From assembly GCA_944324655.1 (NCBI GenBank), contig CALUXF010000015.1, positions 1 to 42,456 of the forward strand: 42,456 nt of DNA. Reading direction: 5' to 3'. The notes under the pieces are model-generated. The model ran no database searches and was not told where the DNA came from. It saw only the letters and a list, made by a program, of their open reading frames with translations. The stretch is from Candidatus Avelusimicrobium aviculae. Lineage in GTDB: Bacteria > Elusimicrobiota > Elusimicrobia > Elusimicrobiales > Elusimicrobiaceae. Position 1 is the first letter of the stretch, and each line of letters opens with the position of its first letter. Shown here one piece after another: positions 2,272 through 36,776 of this stretch. The translations under genes were made by a program, and so were the position numbers.

Positions 2272-2696
2272 ATCCCGCTTTTCCACGCCAAAAACAGCCA
2301 CCAAATCATGATATAACGTACCCCCTTGCCCACGGTAACCAACGGCAAAAATACCCGCATAGGCACGTTTAATATGCCCGCGGCGGCGGTAAGAGGGTCT
2401 CCTATTACGGGGGCCCAGGCAAAAAGAAGCGTCCACCGGCCGTAACGGTTAAAGGTGCGCTGGGCTTTTTGAAGTTGTTGATCGGAAAACGGAAACCACT
2501 TTTTATGGCATAAAGAAGAAGCCCACTTTCCCAGCCACCAGTTTACCCAAGCTCCCAATACGTTGCCTGCGGTGGCGCAGAGTATCAGCGCCCAGGCGGG
2601 CCAATTTCCGGTGTATAACTGCCACCACAGAATTCCTTCGGATTGGGCTGGCAACAAGGTGGCGGCTAAAAAAGAGGCAAAAAATAAAATGACCAT
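2268..2696 (-). CDS. YqaA-like small membrane protein (DedA/VTT-related), 142 aa
   Basis: A multi-spanning membrane protein with the look of the YqaA/SNARE-associated (VTT, DedA-like) family: an early hydrophobic helix, a Gly/Ala-rich segment followed by a Trp-rich stretch (NWWLGKW), a Phe-x-Arg-Tyr-Gly-Arg loop and a Gly-Asp-Pro-Leu-Thr loop before the next helix. DedA-type proteins are linked to lipid-carrier recycling and proton-dependent homeostasis; the role here is inferred from family only. The frame is open to 2744, but the ATG at 2696 has AAAAGGA eight bases upstream and starts just after the glycosylase stop, so I use it. It probably forms an operon with the upstream glycosylase gene. 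Confidence 0.8.
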   Translation of the reverse strand: MVILFFASFLAATLLPAQSEGILWWQLYTGNWPAWALILCATAGNVLGAWVNWWLGKWASSLCHKKWFPFSDQQLQKAQRTFNRYGRWTLLFAWAPVIGDPLTAAAGILNVPMRVFLPLVTVGKGVRYIMIWWLFLAWKSGI

Positions 2697-2710
2697 GTTA
2701 TTATGTCCTT

Positions 2711-3202
2711 TTATACACAGGCTTGTTGGAGGGCGCTTTTCCATATAGCCAGCTTTTGCGGGTAAGAGAGAGCCGCGTTTGCCGGGCTGGTGGAAGGCAG
2801 CAAAAGATATGTTTTTCCGGGTATTTGCCCAAAATGGCGGACAAAAAGTTGATGTGCGGCCTGCCCGTTAAAAAGCAATGTCTTCACCGTGGGGTATTGT
2901 TTAAACAAACGGATAAAATCGTTTGGTTTCCCGTCCCGGATATGGGCGTCTAAGCTGCCGCTTCGGCGGCAGGCGGCTAGGGTGTCCCACAACGCGCCGC
3001 CGTGCTGAAGCAAAGTTTGCAGTTTGTCCGCATAGTCTGCCGGGGCCCGGCCCGGGGCAAAAACGTCAAAAATAATAGGCCAAAAAGCGTTGTGTTTATA
3101 GGCGTAATATTCCTGCGCCTCCAGAGAGGCTTTTCCCGGCATACTGCCTATTATCATAAACCGGCTTTGCGGGGTTATTACCGGCGGAAAGCTTTTTAAC
3201 AT
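2711..3202 (-). CDS. DNA-deoxyinosine (hypoxanthine)-type glycosylase, uracil-DNA glycosylase superfamily
   Basis: 163 aa. The N-terminal motif GSMPGKASLEAQEYYA followed by NAFW matches the family-6 (HDG) branch of the uracil-DNA glycosylase superfamily, which excises hypoxanthine formed by adenine deamination and starts base-excision repair. The C-terminal LLPSTSPANA motif is the second active-site loop (SPAN signature) of this branch. The length is normal for the family. A TATAAT box (3211-3216) stands 8 bases before the ATG with no Shine-Dalgarno, so the mRNA would have almost no leader. The YqaA-like gene follows 14 bases downstream. Activity on uracil or other deaminated bases is possible. 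Fold confidence is high, substrate confidence moderate. Confidence 0.88.
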   Translation of the reverse strand: MLKSFPPVITPQSRFMIIGSMPGKASLEAQEYYAYKHNAFWPIIFDVFAPGRAPADYADKLQTLLQHGGALWDTLAACRRSGSLDAHIRDGKPNDFIRLFKQYPTVKTLLFNGQAAHQLFVRHFGQIPGKTYLLLPSTSPANAALSYPQKLAIWKSALQQACV

Positions 3203-3210
3203 ATGGTTAA

Positions 3211-3241
3211 ATTATATGAAAGTTTTTAAAATTGCTACAAT
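3211..3241. promoter_or_regulatory. divergent -10 boxes between glycosylase and DUF2207 genes
   Basis: The minus strand reads TATAAT at 3211-3216, 8 bases before the glycosylase ATG. The plus strand reads TGC-TACAAT (-10 at 3236-3241, extended), about 28 bases before the DUF2207 start, which has its own GGGGGAAAG ribosome site. Confidence 0.5.
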
Positions 3242-3269
3242 AAAACCAATAGTTCAAAAGGGGGAAAGC

Positions 3270-5048
3270 ATGAAGAAACTTCTTTTTGCCGTTTTGTTTG
3301 CGTTTTTTTCCTGCGGCGCATGGGCGCAGGAGCGCATTACGCAGTTTGCGTCTAACGTGCGTGTGGATAACCAAGGCACCGCTTTGGTGCAGGAGGAAAT
3401 ATCTGTTGTGGCGCAACATCAAAACATTCGCCGCGGCATTTATCGGGATTTGCCTAATAGTTCCAAAGTGCCGGTGGAAGTATTGTCTTTGGAAATGGAC
3501 GGAGCGCCGCATCCGTTTTTTATAGAAAAACACAAAGATTTCCTGCGCGTTAATTTTGGGGACGATCATTTCATCCCCCGCGGGCCGCACACCTATCGTT
3601 TGACCTATATGATGAAAAATGTGGTGCGCTTTTTCCCAGAGTATGACGAGTTTTACTGGAACGTCACCGGAAATGGGTGGGTTTTTCCTATAGAACGCGC
3701 GGTTTTTGAGTTGGACCTTCCGCAAGGTGCCCAGGCCGATGAGGGGCGTATATCCTCTTATATCGGGTATTATGGGCAGAAAGGCTATCCGGCCGTGCGG
3801 GAAAATTTACAGTTTTGGACGCCTTCCCCTTTAGCGCCCCGCCAAGGGCTTACGGTGGCCGTCCCGTGGCAAAAAGGCGTGGTGGAACCCCCGGCGCTGG
3901 GCTGGTGGCAGCGCAATGAGCAAAACGTGGTGTTTGGCATTGTTTTAGCGGTTATTTTGTTATTATGGGGGTTTTATTACGTCAGCTGGCGCCGGGTGGG
4001 CAAAGACCCGGACGCGCGGGTTATCCGCTTGTTTGATCCGCCGGAAGGCTTTTCTGCCGTTATGACGAATTATGTGTATTATATGGGCATGTCTAACTCT
4101 TCGTTGGCGGTATGCATTACCAGCTTGGCGGTAAAAGGCGCGTTGGAAATAAAAGAAGACACTTCTTTTGTTTCCGGTACCAAATACACGCTGACATTAA
4201 AGAATAAAGACGCGGATATGTTGTCTTTGGAAGAAAAGGCCGTACTTGACACAATATTTGCCCACGGCCGAACAGAGGTGCAGATGGGCATGGCCTCCCG
4301 CTTTATATTTAAAGAAGCGCAGCTTGGTTTATCCAAATGTCTGCAGCAACGGGGCGGCAAACAGTATTTTGTGTTTAACTGGAAATACAATTTAGCCACG
4401 CTGGCGGCTTTAGGTGTTCTGTTGTTAGTGGGGGGAATTAGCAATCCTTCCATAGCGGCGGCAATGCTTGGGGTGTTTATTACGGCGGTCACTTATATTT
4501 GGGCCAACGCGCGCCGAAAAACCGTTTTGGGCACGTTGGGAGCGGTAGCTATTCTATTTATGTTAGGCGTATTTGTCCGCGCGGTGTTAGAAGAAACGGC
4601 TTATCCGCTTCCCGTATGGTTAGGAATTATGCTGGTTAGTATTTCCGGCGGTTTTTTTGCCTGCTGGATACAAAGCTATACCAAGCAGGGCCGCCTTATT
4701 ATGGACCAAATAGAAGGCTTTAAGGAGTACTTGGAAATTGGGGAAGGGGGACGGGTGGAAATGTCTAACCCGGCGCAGGCGGCGCAAGTGTTTTGCGATT
4801 ATTTGCCCTATGCCTATGCGTTGGGCGTACAAAGCAAATGGCTGAAGGCCTTTAAAAAACATATGGACGAGGCCGTCCTCACTCAAGCTATACACAGCCG
4901 CGGGTTGATGTTACGCAATGTGGGGATGTTAAGCTCCGTGGTGTCTGGTTTTACGGCGGCGGTCAATCAGTCGTCCGGTTCCAGCGGTTCGGGCGGAAGC
5001 GGTTTCTCCGGCGGCGGTTTTGGCGGCGGAGGCGGCGGAGGCCGTTAG
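3270..5048 (+). CDS. DUF2207 family membrane protein with Gly-rich tail, 592 aa
   Basis: Residues 1-19 form a signal peptide cut before Gln-Glu-Arg. The extracytoplasmic N-terminal domain (about 20-210) has the DUF2207 pattern: early Val-Arg-Val-Asp, then Arg-Arg-Gly-Ile-Tyr-Arg-Asp-Leu and a Trp-Asn-Val-Thr-Gly-x-Gly-Trp core. It is followed by a membrane helix at about 215-238, a cytoplasmic region and two to three further helices (about 390-470). The tail is glycine/serine-rich, with runs of Gly ending in Gly-Arg. The function of DUF2207 is unknown; in other bacteria these proteins are often encoded near LemA proteins, and this window has two lemA genes, though 34 kb away. The ATG at 3270 was chosen over 3216 because AAAGGGGGAAAG precedes it and it gives a proper signal peptide. 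Confidence 0.88.
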   Translation: MKKLLFAVLFAFFSCGAWAQERITQFASNVRVDNQGTALVQEEISVVAQHQNIRRGIYRDLPNSSKVPVEVLSLEMDGAPHPFFIEKHKDFLRVNFGDDHFIPRGPHTYRLTYMMKNVVRFFPEYDEFYWNVTGNGWVFPIERAVFELDLPQGAQADEGRISSYIGYYGQKGYPAVRENLQFWTPSPLAPRQGLTVAVPWQKGVVEPPALGWWQRNEQNVVFGIVLAVILLLWGFYYVSWRRVGKDPDARVIRLFDPPEGFSAVMTNYVYYMGMSNSSLAVCITSLAVKGALEIKEDTSFVSGTKYTLTLKNKDADMLSLEEKAVLDTIFAHGRTEVQMGMASRFIFKEAQLGLSKCLQQRGGKQYFVFNWKYNLATLAALGVLLLVGGISNPSIAAAMLGVFITAVTYIWANARRKTVLGTLGAVAILFMLGVFVRAVLEETAYPLPVWLGIMLVSISGGFFACWIQSYTKQGRLIMDQIEGFKEYLEIGEGGRVEMSNPAQAAQVFCDYLPYAYALGVQSKWLKAFKKHMDEAVLTQAIHSRGLMLRNVGMLSSVVSGFTAAVNQSSGSSGSGGSGFSGGGFGGGGGGGR

Positions 5049-29752: not shown

Positions 29753-29791
29753 ATTCATTCCTTAAATAATGGGAATATACGTCTTATCTCT

Positions 29792-29797
29792 ATTATA
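29792..29797 (-). promoter_or_regulatory. -10 box of the ispA-dxs-LOG operon
   Basis: TATAAT on the minus strand about 40 bases before the start; no convincing -35. Confidence 0.45.
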
Positions 29798-29813
29798 CCT
29801 TATTGGAAAGCAT

Positions 29814-29842
29814 AAAAAGGCCCCGCGCTAAAGGGCGGGGCC
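29814..29842 (-). terminator. terminator after the secreted-paralogue cluster
   Basis: Stem GGCCCCGC (29819-29826) / GCGGGGCC (29835-29842), then TTTTTATG on the minus strand, 7 bases past the stop. Confidence 0.8.
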
Positions 29843-29848
29843 GGAAAG

Positions 29849-31066
29849 TTATGGGTTGTTTTGTAGTTGCTGACGTACCCGGAGGACCTCTTTTTGGTTT
29901 TTTTGGATATTGAAATTCCAAAACTTGAACCAAATTGTAGAGTAATATCTTAGGTGTTCAAGTCTTTCTCTTAGCTGGTAGTCGCTGGGACAGCCTAAGG
30001 CGGAAAAGTTCTGATAGAACTTGATAATAGAACGCAGCGTATTATCCGGCCAGGCTTTGGAACGCCATCCCAGCAACTCCATAGAATTGAAGGTTTTGTA
30101 TAGGTGTTCCAGCTCACTGGGCGTGTATTGATGTAAGTGCATGTTGTGATAGGCAAACTCTAAAAGGCCGCTTATGTCTCTTGAAGCATATAACTCGGTC
30201 CCATCAATTTGGCCGGCCTCTTGATGGACTTTAATAAATTGGCGGATGTCGGCGTCCGTCCAGCCCCAATCGCGCAAAATGGCACAGCCTGAAGAGTTTA
30301 AGGCCTTGTACAAGGCGTCGTATTCTGCGTTCGAATAGGAGTTTAATCCCAGTATTTGAGAAACGGTTTCAAAAGAAAAAGGAAATTTCTCTTCGCCGTG
30401 AGCCCAAGCCAGCATCTTGTTGTACAAATCTCTTATGTCTTGGTATTCAAATGTTATGACTTGAATAATGTCTTTTTCACCTAAAAGGTAGGGTTCTATC
30501 CACCACTTGCAATCATATTCATTATAGTGCGAGGTAAAGAAACTGATATTGAAATTTTTATTTTTTACCGCTTTCCAGTTTTTTTCAGCCTTTTGAAAGC
30601 GCTGCTCTGCTTGCAACAAACGGTTGCGTACGTCTATTGGGGCAAACGCCTCCTGCGGTGCCTTGCTTGATAGATTAGGCTGGGAAGAAGAAATAGGCCC
30701 ATGTTGTACAATTTCCGTATTTTTTATTAGTTCATACATAAAGTCATTAACGGCGGGAATAATGCCGTATTCTTTATCATACAGGCGGAAAAGCATAATG
30801 TCTTTGTAATGGGCAGTAGCGGCGTTTTTTGTCTGAATGGTTAGCAACTTAAGCACAGTGGGGTCTAAAGAGATTTTTTTATTTGGAAACTTCTTATGCG
30901 AAATGTTTGACTTAATTATGCCTTGCGCGGTTTTTGGTGCGTTCTTTGCAGCGGATTTTTCCAGCGCGGTTTTTATGATTTTGGGGGTATTTGATTTTTG
31001 AGAAAAAGCAGGGGTAGCTGCTGCACAGCCAAACAGAAACAAAAGAAAAAGGCGGTTTAAATACAT
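29849..31066 (-). CDS. secreted protein of a local paralogous family, copy A (405 aa)
   Basis: I recognise no known domain. Residues 1-22 form a signal peptide cut before Gln-Lys. A Lys/Ala-rich segment follows, then a mostly helical body. Features shared with the two neighbours: IMLFRLYDKEYGI (in place of F-x-MYNxEQGI), RNRLLQAEQRF, FPFSFETVSQILGL, and LRDWGWTDADIRQFI. It is longer than the others by an extra C-terminal helical region (about 290-390) that includes a second SELEHLYKTFNSMELLGW unit, so it may carry a duplicated repeat. The ATG at 31066 has AAGGAGA eight bases upstream. The promoter is TTGAAC-17-TAATAT (31098-31126). Probably periplasmic or extracellular. Confidence 0.75.
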   Translation of the reverse strand: MYLNRLFLLFLFGCAAATPAFSQKSNTPKIIKTALEKSAAKNAPKTAQGIIKSNISHKKFPNKKISLDPTVLKLLTIQTKNAATAHYKDIMLFRLYDKEYGIIPAVNDFMYELIKNTEIVQHGPISSSQPNLSSKAPQEAFAPIDVRNRLLQAEQRFQKAEKNWKAVKNKNFNISFFTSHYNEYDCKWWIEPYLLGEKDIIQVITFEYQDIRDLYNKMLAWAHGEEKFPFSFETVSQILGLNSYSNAEYDALYKALNSSGCAILRDWGWTDADIRQFIKVHQEAGQIDGTELYASRDISGLLEFAYHNMHLHQYTPSELEHLYKTFNSMELLGWRSKAWPDNTLRSIIKFYQNFSALGCPSDYQLRERLEHLRYYSTIWFKFWNFNIQKNQKEVLRVRQQLQNNP

Positions 31067-31097
31067 TTTTACAATCTCCTTATAAATAGATTTACTA

Positions 31098-31126
31098 ATA
31101 TTACAAAATAGATTTTTGATGTTCAA
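31098..31126 (-). promoter_or_regulatory. promoter of paralogue A
   Basis: -35 TTGAAC (31121-31126), a 17-base spacer, and -10 TAATAT (31098-31103) on the minus strand, 31 bases before the ATG. Confidence 0.65.
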
Positions 31127-31131
31127 TGTGT

Positions 31132-31151
31132 TAAAAGCGCCCGGTTAGACC
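31132..31151 (-). promoter_or_regulatory. shared upstream element, copy A (weak)
   Basis: Plus-strand reading TAAAAGCGCCCGGTTAGACC, 28 bases beyond the -10 box of paralogue A. It resembles the elements before B and C, but less closely, and can also be folded as the end of a terminator for B. Confidence 0.35.
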
Positions 31152-31160
31152 AAAGGCTAT

Positions 31161-32183
31161 TTAGCGGGCAGGTTTTAGCGTATTTATGAGTTGTTGGGTG
31201 TTTTCTAAATCTTTAGGAATCATTTGTAGCCAATATTGCCGCCAGCTGGAAATAAAATCATGCTGTTGCTTGATGATATCCCAGAAGTATTCGCTCCCGT
31301 ACACTTTGGCCCAGTCTTCAGAAAGGTAAAGCGTAATAACGCGGCGGATTTCACGGTCGCTCCAGCCCCAGCCGCGCAGTTGGTCACACTCTAACGAATT
31401 TAAATTTTTTTGCAAAAGCAATAAGTCTTCTGCCGGGTATTCATGTAAAGCAAGTATGCGGTATGCTTCGCTTAGGCGGAAGGGGAAAGCGCCCTTCCCA
31501 TGGGCAAAGGCCAGCATTTTGCGGTACAGGGCTTCAATCTCCGCTTGGCCGTTTGCCATCATGTGTATAGCGTCTTTGTGTTTGGAAATATAAAGCGCTA
31601 TTTCTTTGCTATAGTTGTCTAATTTGGGGGAAGTTTCAAAAAAGAAACTTGTGGCGGTATGGGGGGTGGCCATTTGTGTATATTGAGCCGGTACCGCCGT
31701 TTTTAATAAAACGGGTTTTAATGCGCGCACTTTTTTTAAGGCGTGGTTTAAACGGGCTTCGCTTTGCAGTAAATTTTTTCGTACCTCTAAGGGGGATACG
31801 GGGTTTACTTCACGGGGGCCGAAATAAGAAATGTGTAAGTCCGTTAATAATTCAGACCACATATCCGTGATAGTGGAAATAATGCCTTGCTCGTCATTAT
31901 ACATGCGGAAAGAGGCTATATCCACCAGCTGGGCCAGCTGCGCTTGGTTTGCCTTCAAAATGACTTGGCTAAAAAGGCGGTCCGTTTGTTTGGCTTCTTG
32001 CAAAGCCTGCGTTTTCCACTGGTTGCGCACGGTGGCTTGCAACGCATTTTCAACCTTCCGTTTGGCAGATTTTTCTGCGGCTGTTTTCGCCGCTTTGGTG
32101 ATGTTTGCTTTTTGGGCGAAAACCGGGGTTGTTAATAAACAACCCGCCAAAAATAAAAGATAAACATAGCGAGAATGTATCAT
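31161..32183 (-). CDS. secreted protein of a local paralogous family, copy B (340 aa)
   Basis: Close paralogue of copy C and a distant one of copy A. The signal peptide (1-23) ends Val-Phe-Ala before Gln-Lys-Ala. It also contains Leu-Ala-Gly-Cys at 12-15, which fits a lipobox, so a lipoprotein is an alternative. The body has a basic helical lead, then FRMYNDEQGI, MWSELLTDL, FGPREVNPVSP, LLQSEARLN, HTATSFFFETSPKLD, EIALYIS, FPFRLSEAYRIL, LECDQLRGWGWSDREI and a terminal ISSWRQYWL. The ATG at 32183 has AAGGA nine bases upstream. Function unknown; no catalytic motif is visible. Confidence 0.75.
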   Translation of the reverse strand: MIHSRYVYLLFLAGCLLTTPVFAQKANITKAAKTAAEKSAKRKVENALQATVRNQWKTQALQEAKQTDRLFSQVILKANQAQLAQLVDIASFRMYNDEQGIISTITDMWSELLTDLHISYFGPREVNPVSPLEVRKNLLQSEARLNHALKKVRALKPVLLKTAVPAQYTQMATPHTATSFFFETSPKLDNYSKEIALYISKHKDAIHMMANGQAEIEALYRKMLAFAHGKGAFPFRLSEAYRILALHEYPAEDLLLLQKNLNSLECDQLRGWGWSDREIRRVITLYLSEDWAKVYGSEYFWDIIKQQHDFISSWRQYWLQMIPKDLENTQQLINTLKPAR

Positions 32184-32231
32184 GAATAAGTCCTTAAATA
32201 TTAAATTAAGGTATGGCATTTTTACGTCAGA

Positions 32232-32284
32232 TTTATATTTTATTTTAAAATATTAACTTCCGTTATAAAAGGGCCATAAGACCT
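32232..32284 (-). promoter_or_regulatory. promoter region and shared upstream element of paralogue B
   Basis: -10-like TATAAA (32232-32237) on the minus strand. The element TAAAAGGGCCATAAGACCT (plus-strand reading, 32266-32284) lies 28 bases beyond it. The element also forms part of a small hairpin (CCATAA/TTATGG) that could end transcription from copy C. Confidence 0.4.
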
Positions 32285-32371
32285 ATTATGGGGGCAGGAC
32301 CTGCCAGCAACCTGCCTTTGCCCCTTTATTTGAAAAATCAAAATTCAGCCCCATCCGGCGCGGAAGTAATT

Positions 32372-33391
32372 TCAGCGGGAAGCGTTTAAACCGTTTAGCA
32401 ACTGACGGGTGGCCTCTAAATCTTGGTTACGCTGACTGTTCCAATATGCCCGCCAGTTGGAAATTAAATCATGCTGGAGTTGAACAAAATTTAAAACATA
32501 ATCCGTCTGATACGCCTCGGCCCAGTAATCTGATTGATACAGTTGGATTATTTCACGGATTGCGGCGTCATCCCAGCCCCATTCGCGCAGCTGGTCACAC
32601 CCCGGGGAGTTTAAATCAACGGCTAAAAGAGTTAACTCTTCCATGGAATATTGGGGTAATTCCAATATTCTGTACACTTCTTTGCTAAGAAAAGGAAACG
32701 GCTCTTTTTTATGGGCAAACGCCATCAAACGGCGGTAAACGTATTCCACCTCCGGCTGGCCGGCAGCTATAATGTGCATCAGGTCTTTTTCCCCGCTGAT
32801 GTATAAGGCAATTTCTCTTGCAAAAGGGTCCAGCCTGGGGGAATTCTCAAAAAAGAAACACGTGGCGGTATGCTCTTTGGCCAGGTCTGTACATTGCTGC
32901 TGTGAAACCTTGTTTAATAAAGCGGGTTTTAATTTACGCCATTTTTGCAGAGATTGGTTTAAAAGGGCTTCTTTTTGTAATAAATTTTGACGTGCTTCCG
33001 CTGGAGATATGGGATTTATCTGCCTGGGGCCAAAAAAAGATAAATAATAATCCGACAACAATTCAGACCAAATATTCGTAATAGATGCCAGCAGGCCCTG
33101 TTCTTCATTGTACATATGGAAGAAAGAATCTGTCAGCAGTTTGTGCAGCTGGGCTTGGTTTGATTTTAACATGAGGGGGTTTAAGATTCGCTCTGCTTGG
33201 GAGGCTGCTTTTACGGAGGAGGAGCTCCATGCGTGCCGCAGGGCGGCGTTAGAGGCGGAGGAACCCGATTGCTTGGTAACCTCCAACGCTTTTTTCACGG
33301 TTTTTTTTATGTTGGCTTTTTGGGCCCAGGCGGGCGCGTTAAACGCCCCGCAACATAAAAACATACAAAGATAAACACAAAGAAAACGCAT
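32372..33391 (-). CDS. secreted protein of a local paralogous family, copy C (339 aa)
   Basis: Aligns along its length with copy B: signal peptide 1-23 ending Ala-Trp-Ala before Gln-Lys-Ala, then FHMYNEEQGLL, IWSELLSDY, FGPRQINPISP, NLLQKEALLN, HTATCFFFENSPRLD, EIALYIS, FPFLSKEVYRIL, PGCDQLREWGWDDAAI and ISNWRAYWN. The conserved block with Trp-Gly-Trp-x-Asp-x2-Ile-Arg is the best family signature. GGGAGA lies nine bases before the ATG. The promoter has TATAAT (33428-33433) and two upstream elements. Function unknown. Confidence 0.78.
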   Translation of the reverse strand: MRFLCVYLCMFLCCGAFNAPAWAQKANIKKTVKKALEVTKQSGSSASNAALRHAWSSSSVKAASQAERILNPLMLKSNQAQLHKLLTDSFFHMYNEEQGLLASITNIWSELLSDYYLSFFGPRQINPISPAEARQNLLQKEALLNQSLQKWRKLKPALLNKVSQQQCTDLAKEHTATCFFFENSPRLDPFAREIALYISGEKDLMHIIAAGQPEVEYVYRRLMAFAHKKEPFPFLSKEVYRILELPQYSMEELTLLAVDLNSPGCDQLREWGWDDAAIREIIQLYQSDYWAEAYQTDYVLNFVQLQHDLISNWRAYWNSQRNQDLEATRQLLNGLNASR

Positions 33392-33427
33392 CTAAACATC
33401 TCCCGTATGGCAAATAACCGGCGTATT

Positions 33428-33433
33428 ATTATA
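33428..33433 (-). promoter_or_regulatory. -10 box of paralogue C
   Basis: TATAAT on the minus strand, 36 bases before the ATG. The -35 region is weak (TTAATC at 17-base spacing), which fits a promoter needing an activator. Confidence 0.55.
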
Positions 33434-33458
33434 GTATTCTAAAATACGGTGATTAATA

Positions 33459-33507
33459 TAAAAAGGGTCATTGGTCCTAAAATGCCTGGTAAAAAGGACC
33501 TAGACCT
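33459..33507 (-). promoter_or_regulatory. two shared upstream elements of paralogue C, 31 bases apart
   Basis: Plus-strand readings TAAAAAGGGTCATTGGTCCT (33459-33478) and TAAAAAGGACCTAGACCT (33490-33507). Their starts are 31 bases apart, about three helical turns. The first begins 26 bases beyond the -10 box. Both have an imperfect AGG...CCT dyad. Confidence 0.45.
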
Positions 33508-33530
33508 ATTTTAAAATAAACATTTTTATA

Positions 33531-33536
33531 TATAAT
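33531..33536 (+). promoter_or_regulatory. -10 box of hydF (leaderless type)
   Basis: TATAAT, seven bases before the ATG at 33544, with no ribosome site. Confidence 0.55.
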
Positions 33537-33543
33537 TTTAAAT

Positions 33544-34722
33544 ATGGTAAAAGTAAACAGACCTCATATAGGTATTTTTGGAAAAATGAACGTGGGCAAA
33601 AGCTCATTGATTAACGCGCTGACGGGCCAGCAGGTATCCGTGGTGGCTGAACACCCCGGCACCACCACCGACCCGGTAAAAAAAGTAATTGAAATTTTAG
33701 GAATAGGCCCCGTAACCATTGTGGATACCGCCGGATTGGATGACCACTCCGCCCTGGGTTCCCAGCGCGTACAAAGAACCAATGAGGCCTTATCCCAGGT
33801 GGATTTGGCCGTTTTGGTTTTTGCGGAAAAATTTGATGAGTATGACCAAACCCTCATGGAAACTTGCGTGGCGCAAAAAATACCTTTCTTTTTTGTACAC
33901 AACAAAAGCGATTTGCAGCCTTTAAATGTGGAAATAAAAGGGGCCGATATTGTGGATTTTTCCTGTAAAGAGCCCAATTTATCCCGTTTATTGCAAGCCA
34001 TTAAAACCCATTTGCCCAAAAGCGCTTATTCAACGGATGTGCTTCTGGACGATATTGTAGCCCCCGGCCAACAGGTGGTATTGGTGATGCCGGTGGATTC
34101 TTCCGCCCCGGAAGGAAGGCTGATTCTGCCCCAGGTGCAGACAATACGCAATTTGCTGGACATCGGCGCGGTGGCCGTGTGTCTAAAAGACAGCGAGCTC
34201 CGCTCCTGGCTGCAAACCCATACCCCGCATCTGGTGGTTACGGATTCCCAGGCTTTCGCTTATGTCAGTTCCATTGTGCCCAAAGAAATTGCCCTTACCA
34301 GCTTTAGTATTTTGTTTTCACGCATGAAGGGGAATTTTGAGGCTTTCTTAAAGGGAACCCGAACTATTGACAATTTAAATGATGGCGATAGAATATTAAT
34401 AATGGAATCCTGCTCCCACAGCGTAAACACCTGTGATGATATCGGCAGGACTAAAATCCCCGCGTTAATGCGCAAATACACGGGCAAGCGGTTAGAGTTT
34501 GACGTACTGGTAAATTTAGACCCTATCCCGCAGGACGCGGCCAAGTATAAGCTGGCTATACAATGCGGCGGGTGCATGGTAACGCGCAACCAAATTTTAC
34601 GCCGCTTGGACGTTTTGCAAAAGGCCGGCGTTGCGCTGACTAACTATGGAATGGCTTTAGCTTATTGTAACGGCATTTTTGACAGAGTAACGGCGGTTTT
34701 CCGCAGCCGTAAGCCGTTTTAA
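33544..34722 (+). CDS. hydF: [FeFe]-hydrogenase H-cluster maturation GTPase
   Basis: HydF is the scaffold that carries the 2Fe precursor and delivers it to the hydrogenase. 392 aa. The GTPase domain has the P-loop GKMNVGKSS at 13-21, HPGTTTDP (switch I), DTAGLDD at about 60 and NKSD at about 120. The C-terminal cluster domain has the metal ligands Cys290 and His292 (ESCSHS) and Cys341-x2-Cys344 (QCGGCM). No ribosome site is seen, and TATAAT ends seven bases upstream. hydG lies 0.7 kb downstream in the opposite direction, with a pilin gene between. HydE and the hydrogenase are not in the window. Confidence 0.95.
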   Translation: MVKVNRPHIGIFGKMNVGKSSLINALTGQQVSVVAEHPGTTTDPVKKVIEILGIGPVTIVDTAGLDDHSALGSQRVQRTNEALSQVDLAVLVFAEKFDEYDQTLMETCVAQKIPFFFVHNKSDLQPLNVEIKGADIVDFSCKEPNLSRLLQAIKTHLPKSAYSTDVLLDDIVAPGQQVVLVMPVDSSAPEGRLILPQVQTIRNLLDIGAVAVCLKDSELRSWLQTHTPHLVVTDSQAFAYVSSIVPKEIALTSFSILFSRMKGNFEAFLKGTRTIDNLNDGDRILIMESCSHSVNTCDDIGRTKIPALMRKYTGKRLEFDVLVNLDPIPQDAAKYKLAIQCGGCMVTRNQILRRLDVLQKAGVALTNYGMALAYCNGIFDRVTAVFRSRKPF

Positions 34723-34731
34723 CGGTATTTT

Positions 34732-34740
34732 TGATATACT
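34732..34740 (+). promoter_or_regulatory. extended -10 of the pilin gene
   Basis: TGA-TATACT (-10 at 34735-34740), 38 bases before the pilin ATG, just after the hydF stop. The leader holds a small GGGAAATCCC hairpin and the ribosome site AAAGGAGAG. Confidence 0.5.
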
Positions 34741-34778
34741 TTAAATACAAGAGGGAAATCCCTTTTAAAGGAGAGATT

Positions 34779-35222
34779 ATGAAAAAAGGTTTTACGTTGA
34801 TTGAACTAATGGTAGTGGTGTTGATTATCGGCGTGTTGGCGTCGGTAGCGCTGCCCCAGTATGAGCGTTCCGTTAAGAAATCCCGCACGGCGGAAGTGCT
34901 CATGCTGCTTAAATCTATTTCTGATTCCCAACAAGTGTATTTGACCACTTTTAAAAAATGCGCTGACAATTTAAGCAAGTTGGATATCCGCATTCCGACA
35001 GAAAACATGGCCGCCGATAACGGGGACGGCCGCTGGCATTATTCTTTGCCTACCCAAAATGGGAAAAACTGCTCCGCCATTGCAACCAATTCCAAATATT
35101 TTCCGGGGCTTACCGTGTCTATTACGGCTAATTTTGACCCGTATAAAGTATGTTGGAACTGCTCCGGCACGGAATGTGCGGATTTTTTGACTATGACGGG
35201 TTTGCAAGATAAAGCTTGCTAA
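34779..35222 (+). CDS. type IV pilin-like protein, 147 aa
   Basis: A short leader MKKG is cut before Phe5 by prepilin peptidase. The mature protein starts FTLIELMVVVLIIGVLASVA with Glu at mature position 5, the canonical class III signal and assembly helix, followed by PQYERSVKKSRTAEV. The globular part has six cysteines, three of them in VCWNCSGTEC near the C-terminus, and would form a disulfide-stabilised head. It may be a pilus subunit, a minor pilin or a type II secretion pseudopilin. The ATG at 34779 has AAAGGAGAG upstream. Single gene with its own terminator; Elusimicrobiota carry many such stand-alone pilins. Confidence 0.93.
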   Translation: MKKGFTLIELMVVVLIIGVLASVALPQYERSVKKSRTAEVLMLLKSISDSQQVYLTTFKKCADNLSKLDIRIPTENMAADNGDGRWHYSLPTQNGKNCSAIATNSKYFPGLTVSITANFDPYKVCWNCSGTECADFLTMTGLQDKAC

Positions 35223-35242
35223 CCGTGGTTCTTTGTAACGTG

Positions 35243-35276
35243 TTCCGGCTCCGCCTAGGCGGGGCCGGAATTTTTT
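35243..35276 (+). terminator. terminator of the pilin gene
   Basis: A 13-bp stem TTCCGGCTCCGCC / GGCGGGGCCGGAA (one T-G pair), a two-base nominal loop, then TTTTTT. Confidence 0.92.
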
Positions 35277-35296
35277 ATAAATGCTTTTGGTATAAA

Positions 35297-35316
35297 TCCC
35301 GGGGGTAACCCCGGGA
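35297..35316. other. GC-rich hairpin with GTAA tetraloop
   Basis: TCCCGGGG / CCCCGGGA with loop GTAA, in the gap between the pilin and hydG terminators. A similar hairpin is at 42411-42430. Confidence 0.6.
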
Positions 35317-35354
35317 AGTTTTATATTGTTGCAACGCGTTTTTATGGGAAAGAT

Positions 35355-35381
35355 AAAAACGCCCCGTCTGTTAAACGGGGC
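35355..35381 (-). terminator. terminator of hydG
   Basis: Stem GCCCCGT / ACGGGGC, followed on the minus strand by GTTTTTATC, 12 bases past the hydG stop. Confidence 0.85.
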
Positions 35382-35393
35382 ATTTGGGGCGGG

Positions 35394-36776
35394 TTAGAAG
35401 TATAAATCCCGTTTTCCTTCTTTTATTTTTTGCAGGTTTTCCTCTATCATCTTGCGGATAGGCGTTCCTTCCGGGAAGTTTTCCTGCGTAGTGCTGGCAA
35501 TCAGCGCCAAGCCCTTTTGTTTGAGCCCTTCCGGGGCGAAGTCATATAAATATTCCGCAAACGTAAACATGGCGTTGGGCAGGCAGTGGGTTTTTATCAG
35601 CCCCGGTTTAGCCATGTCCATAAAGTCTTTGCCTACGCGGCCCAAACGGTAACACCCCGTGCAGAAAGAAGGCATGTGTTTGGCGTCCACAATGGCTTCT
35701 ATTACCTGGTCCGTGGTGCGCCCGTCAGTAAGGGTAAATTGGCTTCCGTTTTCTTTGTCATATGAATAACCGCCCGGGTTGACGCGTGAAGCCGCCGATA
35801 TTTGCGATACGCCCAGCTCCAAGCATTCATTGCGGGTTTGGGGGGATTCGCGCGTGCTTAAAATAATGCCGGTATACGGCACCGCCAAACGCAGCACCGC
35901 TACGCATTTTTTAAATTCTTCGTCTGTCATCGGGTCATTGGGGTGCTGGCTGAAATCAGACCCTTCCGCCGGTTCTATGCGCGGTATGGATATAGTGTGC
36001 GGCCCTACGCCGTAGGTCTTGTCCAAGTAATTGGAATGTTCCAGCGTGGCTAAGATTTCGTATTTATGGTCGTATAATCCAAGCAGCGGGCCGATGCCTA
36101 CATCGTTAATACCGGCTTTTAGGGCGCGGTCCATGGCGTCCAGGCGGAATTGGTAGTCTTTTTTGGCTCCGGCCAGGTGCAGCTTTTGGTAAGTTTCTTT
36201 ATGATACGTTTCCTGAAACAGCTGGTAGGTGCCGATATGGCATTTTTTAAGTTCTTCAAATTCCGGCTCGGTCAACGGCGCGATGTTTACGTTTACGCGG
36301 CGGATGTTTTGCCCGTTCCAGCGGGTTTCATAAATGGCTTTTATGCTGTCATACACGTATTGCAGCCCGCCGCCGGGGTAGGCTTCGCCCGCTACCATCA
36401 GAATGCGCTTATGCCCTTGTTGCAATAGGGCGGTTACTTCTTGGTGGATTTCGTCCATCGTGCTGGCGTGGCGTTTAAGCGTGGTGTTGGAACGGCGGAA
36501 CGCGCAGTACACGCATTCATTGGTGCAGATATTGGATATATATAAAGGGGCAAATAATACAATGCGGTTGCCGTAAATGGCTTCTTTTACGTATTTGGCC
36601 GCTTCAAAAACTTTATTAAGAAGGGCCGGGTCCGTTACGTTTAAAAGCACGGCGGCTTCTTCCAAGGATATGCCTTTTAATTCTTTGGCTTTGTTTAAAA
36701 TTCCCGTCACCTCGGAATCTGTGTGCGATTTGGCGCGTTCCAAGGTTCGTTGCAGTTTTTCATCATCAATAATCAT
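35394..36776 (-). CDS. hydG: [FeFe]-hydrogenase maturase HydG (radical SAM tyrosine lyase)
   Basis: HydG cleaves tyrosine to give the CO and CN- ligands of the H-cluster. 460 aa. The radical SAM motif C-x3-C-x2-C is at Cys84, 88 and 91 (CTNECVYC). The C-terminal auxiliary-cluster motif is exactly C-x2-C-x22-C (FCTGCYR ... HCLPNA), which separates HydG from the related ThiH. The GEAYPGG region and IPRIEPAEGS are also present. TATCAT (36783-36788) ends six bases before the ATG and there is no ribosome site, so a leaderless transcript is likely. Confidence 0.95.
   Translation of the reverse strand: MIIDDEKLQRTLERAKSHTDSEVTGILNKAKELKGISLEEAAVLLNVTDPALLNKVFEAAKYVKEAIYGNRIVLFAPLYISNICTNECVYCAFRRSNTTLKRHASTMDEIHQEVTALLQQGHKRILMVAGEAYPGGGLQYVYDSIKAIYETRWNGQNIRRVNVNIAPLTEPEFEELKKCHIGTYQLFQETYHKETYQKLHLAGAKKDYQFRLDAMDRALKAGINDVGIGPLLGLYDHKYEILATLEHSNYLDKTYGVGPHTISIPRIEPAEGSDFSQHPNDPMTDEEFKKCVAVLRLAVPYTGIILSTRESPQTRNECLELGVSQISAASRVNPGGYSYDKENGSQFTLTDGRTTDQVIEAIVDAKHMPSFCTGCYRLGRVGKDFMDMAKPGLIKTHCLPNAMFTFAEYLYDFAPEGLKQKGLALIASTTQENFPEGTPIRKMIEENLQKIKEGKRDLYF

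Follow-up and report, generated by a model that had tools for sequence, protein, structure and literature searches.

Which role could be played by three adjacent genes whose products resemble one another and no described protein family? We addressed this question for a 42,456-nucleotide stretch of Candidatus Avelusimicrobium aviculae (assembly GCA_944324655.1, contig CALUXF010000015.1; hereafter, the window), where a minus-strand cassette of three genes, named C, B and A in their order along the cassette, occupies the spacer between hydF and a polyprenyl synthetase gene called ispA here. The organism belongs to the Elusimicrobiota, a phylum whose gut members are common in animals and have hardly been studied experimentally. 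A preliminary description of the window had taken the three genes for a lineage-specific tandem family of exported proteins under diversification, and this interpretation is supported by the data below. We believe that the products are soluble, basic, secreted or surface proteins that may bind a changing partner outside the cytoplasm, in all likelihood on the cell surface or past it, and we give this reading about an even chance.

An exported protein family confined to one genus

The three genes are clearly paralogous. B and C align over their full length with 49% identity (E value 4e-120), and A is diverged, with about 30% identity to B and C (E 7e-31 and 8e-38); these are the sole family members in the genome of the window (G000). 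Profile searches gathered 15 members in nine species, all belonging to one genus: three in G000, two each in G005, G007, G093 and G099, and one each in G035, G021, G014 and G088, those of G099 and G014 lying on broken contigs. No member was found elsewhere in the phylum (341 genomes, 100 genera searched), nor in viral contigs, phages and plasmids. An alignment-based scan of GTDB r220 (about 85,000 species) returned seven contigs, all from species already found. A scan of the GTDB contigs with the sequence of C alone retrieved nothing. A weak profile match in G020 and G001 to a 1129-residue frame was discarded as a chance match to a UvrD-type helicase. The lineage restriction proposed earlier is thus supported, down to the level of one genus.

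The proposed lack of a recognised domain was also borne out. None of the 15 members matched Pfam-A above the curated gathering score (best E 0.013, with no family matching more than two members); only scattered weak matches, none acceptable, were obtained with NCBIfam, PHROGs and PADLOC, PDB sequences yielded no acceptable match, and the conserved C-terminal block in particular lacked any strong match in these collections. The NCBIfam entry NF047414 (BRANT) was listed for three members (best 0.00039) and was absent from the eight members re-scanned with cut-offs, so that it is likely a composition match in the N-terminal lead. Literature searches retrieved no paper on such a family. We conclude that the family is new, its kind (fast-evolving orphan exported families) being already known.

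All 15 members start with a signal-peptide-like sequence, and by rule-based reading their mature parts contain no other transmembrane stretch (peak 19-residue hydropathy 0.6-1.4, no mature stretch above 1.4 on the Kyte-Doolittle scale), in agreement with the predicted export. By the same reading, the signal peptide of A, B and C is cut before Gln-Lys. The mature proteins are basic, with an isoelectric point (pI) of 9.0-9.8 in 14 of the 15 members and of 10.2-11.5 over the first 45 mature residues. The prepilin N-terminal methylation motif is absent from all members.

The motifs claimed for A, B and C are confirmed, with one correction. They are present in all three proteins, A keeping them in a loosened form (FRLYDKEYGI, FPF, WGWTDADIR). 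The correction is that the Gln-Lys-cut signal peptide and the Lys/Ala-rich lead do not set the family apart, since they recur in other proteins exported in this genus. Many of these proteins combine a signal peptide, Ala-Gln (or Ala-Gln-Lys) and a Lys/Ala-rich lead, the same N-terminal layout as in the A/B/C family, with unrelated bodies unlike that of the family; examples are found at L027:4455-6742, L070:4275-5558, L071:1316-1975, L073:3914-5666, L078:3528-4571 and L079:3948-5081. When 455 open reading frames (ORFs) were searched, an N-terminal profile matched such proteins with E values down to 7e-8, and a core profile (residues 58 on) retrieved only the A/B/C family. The weak N-terminal matches were therefore rejected as family members, being confined to the signal peptide and lead and missed by the core profile. 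The shared lead may possibly be a common localisation or trafficking lead. Most of the lead-bearing proteins have no Pfam match, and one is weakly ChaN/Tiki-like (PF04187, E 4.6e-5, below the cut-off). A second exported orphan family was observed in tandem in G099 (L074:831-2207 and 2400-3839; 458 and 479 amino acids) and as a single gene in its near relative G000 (L069:3918-5357), where it stands beside a phosphofructokinase-like gene and has no Pfam match.

Turnover and allele replacement in the hydF-ispA slot

Every member of the family sits in the divergent intergenic slot between hydF and ispA. This slot (29759-33543 in the window; L080-L099) was surveyed in the 53 genomes of the genus that carry hydF and ispA on one contig. 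It is empty in 31 of them, with a gap of 64-233 bp; 11 genomes, and probably a twelfth in which it is read on the opposite strand only, hold a type IV pilin-like gene there, and seven hold the A/B/C family, which two further genomes carry on broken contigs. The 405-bp slot of G029 retains the remnant of an A-type gene, decayed and interrupted by stops and frame breaks (tblastn, 42% identity over 57 amino acids, E 8e-8), and two further gaps, in G089 (344 bp) and G095 (515 bp), fit none of these groups. Taken as a whole, the hydF-ispA spacer is a genus-wide insertion slot. In the trees of hydF and ispA the family bearers fall into two neighbouring groups; in the hydF tree five of them form one clade, and the remaining ones stand dispersed between the relic and relatives whose slot is empty. 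Such a pattern agrees with a single gain followed by several losses as well as with exchange, and the weak support of the trees does not allow a decision between the two. The suggested tandem expansion is seen in the window and is modest across the genus, most species having one or two copies and only G000 having three.

Two further observations concern the flanks of the slot. In G014, a second, partial ispA (L024:3256-3948) is located beyond the family gene; it may have arisen by duplication around the insertion or be an artefact of the assembly. The hydF matches of G011, G004, G022, G098, G013, G016, G025 and G082 are each reported with one in-frame stop, which lies close to the match end or may simply be the normal stop.

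The family genes change faster at the amino-acid level than their neighbours. According to the Nei-Gojobori method, the ratio of nonsynonymous to synonymous divergence (dN/dS) is mostly 0.12-0.42 for family pairs and reaches 0.67 in one very close pair, as compared to 0.02-0.07 for the flanking hydF, hydG, ispA and dxs. The synonymous divergence (dS) itself departs from that of the flanks in both directions. Between G000 and G099, gene C has a dS of 0.98 vs. 0.27-0.28 for hydF and hydG (p 1e-16), and seven other genes range from 0.009 to 0.40, all below the value of gene C. Gene B is a mosaic in the same comparison, with a dS of 0.66 over the first 200 codons and of only 0.015 over the last 114 (p 3e-12). 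At the DNA level, identity in this pair is 87-100% outside the cassette, falls sharply at its edge near 33,391-33,450 to 57-73% from the start of C, and is again 100% inside B. The opposite departure was found between G021 and G014, where the dS of A is 0.041 vs. 0.29 for ispA and 0.47 for dxs (p 4e-16). Because the dS of the family lies both above and below that of its flanks, these data are best explained by replacement of the family alleles through recombination. The pilin-like gene that follows hydF (window 34651-35400) is almost identical in G099 (dS 0.019), its neighbours having a dS of 0.27-0.38, thus indicating that this gene has also been recently exchanged.

Several points weigh against reading these patterns as diversification at a variable interface. 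Exchange is not unique to the cassette, since the other genes compared between G000 and G099 recombine too. The pair G007-G035 shows no excess of dS (0.96 for the family vs. 1.03-1.07), so that its divergence mostly looks vertical. No gene-wide dN/dS exceeds 1 (the range is 0.12-0.67, with too few close pairs for site models), and for this reason the fast change could also come from relaxed constraint. Nor does any co-occurrence point to a partner. The earlier claim of diversification accordingly stands as far as raised dN/dS and recombining alleles are concerned, and positive selection is not proven.

Predicted fold, duplicated unit of A and layout of the cassette

The AlphaFold model of C is all-helical, with a mean predicted local distance difference test (pLDDT) score of 79.6 and a predicted template modelling (pTM) score of 0.71; most of residues 80-335 score near or above 90, and the lead (25-57) is of low confidence. 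Long helices span residues 58-94, 100-120, 130-161 and 299-338 and surround the short helices of the 189-286 segment, which hold the most conserved residues (FPF, LNS, LR-x-WGW, IR). The model of A is likewise all-helical and confident in its core (pLDDT 75.7).

We took a Foldseek E value below 0.001 together with a template modelling (TM) score of about 0.5 as a fold match and searched the PDB and BFVD libraries. Nothing significant was obtained for C (best E 0.15 in PDB, with a TM-score of 0.21, and 0.066 in BFVD) or for A (best E 0.92), and the highest query TM-score in the lists was 0.23. The listed proteins (NasR, prenyl synthases, helical pore formers, TolC) were therefore rejected as homologues because of their non-significant scores. 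The top non-significant match was to helical sensor-type bundles (E 0.15, probability 0.54, TM-score 0.21). The NIT domain of NasR (4akk) and the TorS sensor (3i9y) are, like the family, all-helical bundles of long antiparallel helices, whereas the family has no kinase or output domain, shares no sequence match with them and possesses a signal peptide and, as a separate element, the W-G-W unit. In these comparisons with PDB and BFVD, too, the conserved C-terminal block lacked any strong match, although one to an unsolved cellular family may exist.

The proposal that A is extended by a second copy of its last unit is supported in two ways. In BLASTP, B and C give a second match to A after the main one (E 2e-6 and 1e-5), and in the model of A the helices 246-255, 259-266 and 271-285 are mirrored by 316-325, 329-336 and 341-357, followed by one terminal helix. 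A-type genes of G005 and G093 encode 401 and 397 amino acids, the extra segment being present in that of G005, and those of G007, G035, G021 and G014 encode 347-366.

The features of the cassette are collected in the table. On one side it is flanked by hydF (33544-34722, plus strand), on the other by ispA (29758-28742, minus strand), after which comes dxs. The likely starts of B and A, chosen inside longer mechanical ORFs, are preceded by AAGGAC as a Shine-Dalgarno sequence and by AAGGAG, respectively. Judging by a TATAAT before C, a strong terminator after A and another TATAAT before ispA, the cassette probably represents its own transcription unit; the TATAAT ahead of C lacks a clear -35 element and is absent from the consensus-scan list. 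Internal promoters are possible, given the intergenic gaps of 188 nucleotides (C-B) and 94 nucleotides (B-A). Similar AT-rich stretches (ATGRCCCTTTT...ATTTTARAATA) were recognised by eye both ahead of C (33428-33500) and ahead of B (32225-32290), as might be expected if gene and regulatory region had been duplicated together.

Table. Positions of the cassette genes and their elements in the window
Feature	Position	Strand	Description
Gene C	32372..33391	-	ORF, 339 amino acids; exported all-helical protein; orthologues in G099, G005, G093, G007, G088
Signal peptide of C	33323..33391	-	Residues 1-23, cleavage AWA/QK; rule-based
F-x-MYNEEQG motif of C	33095..33121	-	Residues 91-99; turn joining the first two long helices; alignment and model
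Most conserved block of C	32528..32713	-	Residues 227-288, HG..FPF ... LNS..C..LR.WGW.D..IR; small helical subdomain; per-element conservation, invariant columns
Gene B	31161..32183	-	340 amino acids from internal ATG at 32183; mechanical ORF 31161-32219; G099 orthologue
Signal peptide of B	32115..32183	-	Cleavage VFA/QK; rule-based
Conserved block of B	31317..31502	-	Counterpart of the HG..FPF/WGW block of C; alignment
Gene A	29849..31066	-	405 amino acids from ATG at 31066; mechanical ORF 29849-31126
Signal peptide of A	31001..31066	-	Cleavage AFS/QK; rule-based
First helical-unit copy in A	30212..30373	-	Residues 232-285; alignment, model
Second, diverged helical-unit copy in A	29996..30163	-	Residues 302-357; BLASTP and model
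TATAAT, possible -10 element	33428..33433	-	37 nucleotides ahead of the start of C; read from sequence
Intrinsic terminator	29819..29842	-	Directly after A, before ispA; 8 G-C pairs, then TTTTT
TATAAT, possible separate ispA promoter	29792..29797	-	Read from sequence

Possible roles of the cassette

The reading that we favour may be outlined as follows. A self-contained accessory cassette would have been inserted into the hydF-ispA spacer in one clade of gut Elusimicrobiaceae. Each product would be exported via the Sec pathway, cut before Gln-Lys and folded into a soluble, basic, all-helical protein that has three long helices at its N-terminal side and a fourth at its C-terminal end, the small conserved FPF / W-G-W / I-R helical unit lying between them. 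It would act by binding, either in the periplasm or, with higher probability, beyond the outer membrane; binding is the most likely role because the family has no lipid anchor, membrane segment or enzyme signature. The poorly conserved basic lead and the long helices would meet the changing partner (host mucosa or diet glycan, phage, competitor), the W-G-W unit maintaining the fold. Variety would arise from gene duplication, internal unit duplication and gene decay, as well as from homologous recombination that uses the conserved flanking DNA to replace alleles between species. The surface location, the binding role and the identity of the partner are what we infer here.

The general kind to which the cassette would then belong is that of the recombining surface protein families which gut and host-associated bacteria carry and which are restricted to certain taxa. 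Like them, the A/B/C family is exported, patchy and variable in copy number, with mosaic alleles and faster amino-acid change than its neighbours. Two marks of the secreted or surface diversifying kind were found, namely a signal peptide without a membrane segment in the mature part (rule-based) and faster change with allele exchange when compared to the flanks. However, no described family shares its sequence or fold, and no switching device, anchor or repeat-length variation was seen.

The main rival explanation, less probable in our opinion and still to be taken seriously, is a periplasmic envelope-stress or scaffold protein whose basic lead binds peptidoglycan, lipopolysaccharide or other proteins and which changes fast only through weak constraint. 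A plain signal peptide with no surface-sorting signal, a basic, soluble and helical product, a dN/dS below 1 everywhere and the dispensability evident from the losses and the relic would all agree with it. Weak constraint, however, predicts neither allele replacement in two directions, with dS well above and well below that of the flanks, nor frames that stay intact in every one of the 15 members despite deep divergence. A secreted enzyme whose active site is all-helical and not yet described would account for an invariant Glu, His and Arg, as E141 (LLQxE), H227 (AxAHG) and R269 (LRxWGW) of C are kept in nearly all members, the most diverged included; but three conserved polar residues are few, and no known enzyme fold was matched, so we hold this to be unlikely.

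An effector or antibacterial toxin, helical and perhaps pore-forming, with the tandem copies being variants or a toxin and its protective homologue, seems very unlikely. The alpha-helical pore-forming proteins AhlB, SmhB, Cry6Aa and MakA are secreted and built of very long helices as well, and they recur in the non-significant Foldseek lists; the variable copy number and fast change would also suit a toxin. Their matches are nevertheless not significant (E 1.0 or worse), with TM-scores of 0.09-0.16, a level that any long-helix protein would reach, and the family lacks their hydrophobic head or tongue segment, having no stretch able to enter a membrane by 19-residue hydropathy. Moreover, the cassette contains no separate immunity-like gene, and no toxin family was matched in the Pfam, NCBIfam, PHROGs and PADLOC scans. 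Hardly likely at all is an accessory part of type IV pili. It is suggested by the pilin-like genes that fill the same slot in 11-12 genomes of the genus and by the pilin gene that follows hydF in the window (34776-35219), which bears the pilin N-methylation motif; the family itself has no pilin motif, such pilin-like genes occur at many unrelated loci of the genus, and the slot seems merely to tolerate insertions.

Returning to secreted or surface proteins that bind a changing partner, a cassette gained, lost and swapped among relatives, with a rate of change several-fold above that of its neighbours, indicates where outside selection acts on these bacteria. The confident core of C, unmatched in PDB, makes the protein a fair target for a possibly new helical fold, and the empty slots, the relic and the 15 intact members in one genus render gain, loss and exchange directly testable. 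Tentatively, and with the chances rather against it, this exported, all-helical orphan family of one genus may even represent a new class of protein fold. Allele replacement across species and duplication of an internal unit, both at a dedicated chromosomal slot, would keep it variable, and it would serve as the variable interface of this clade with its animal host, phages or competitors.

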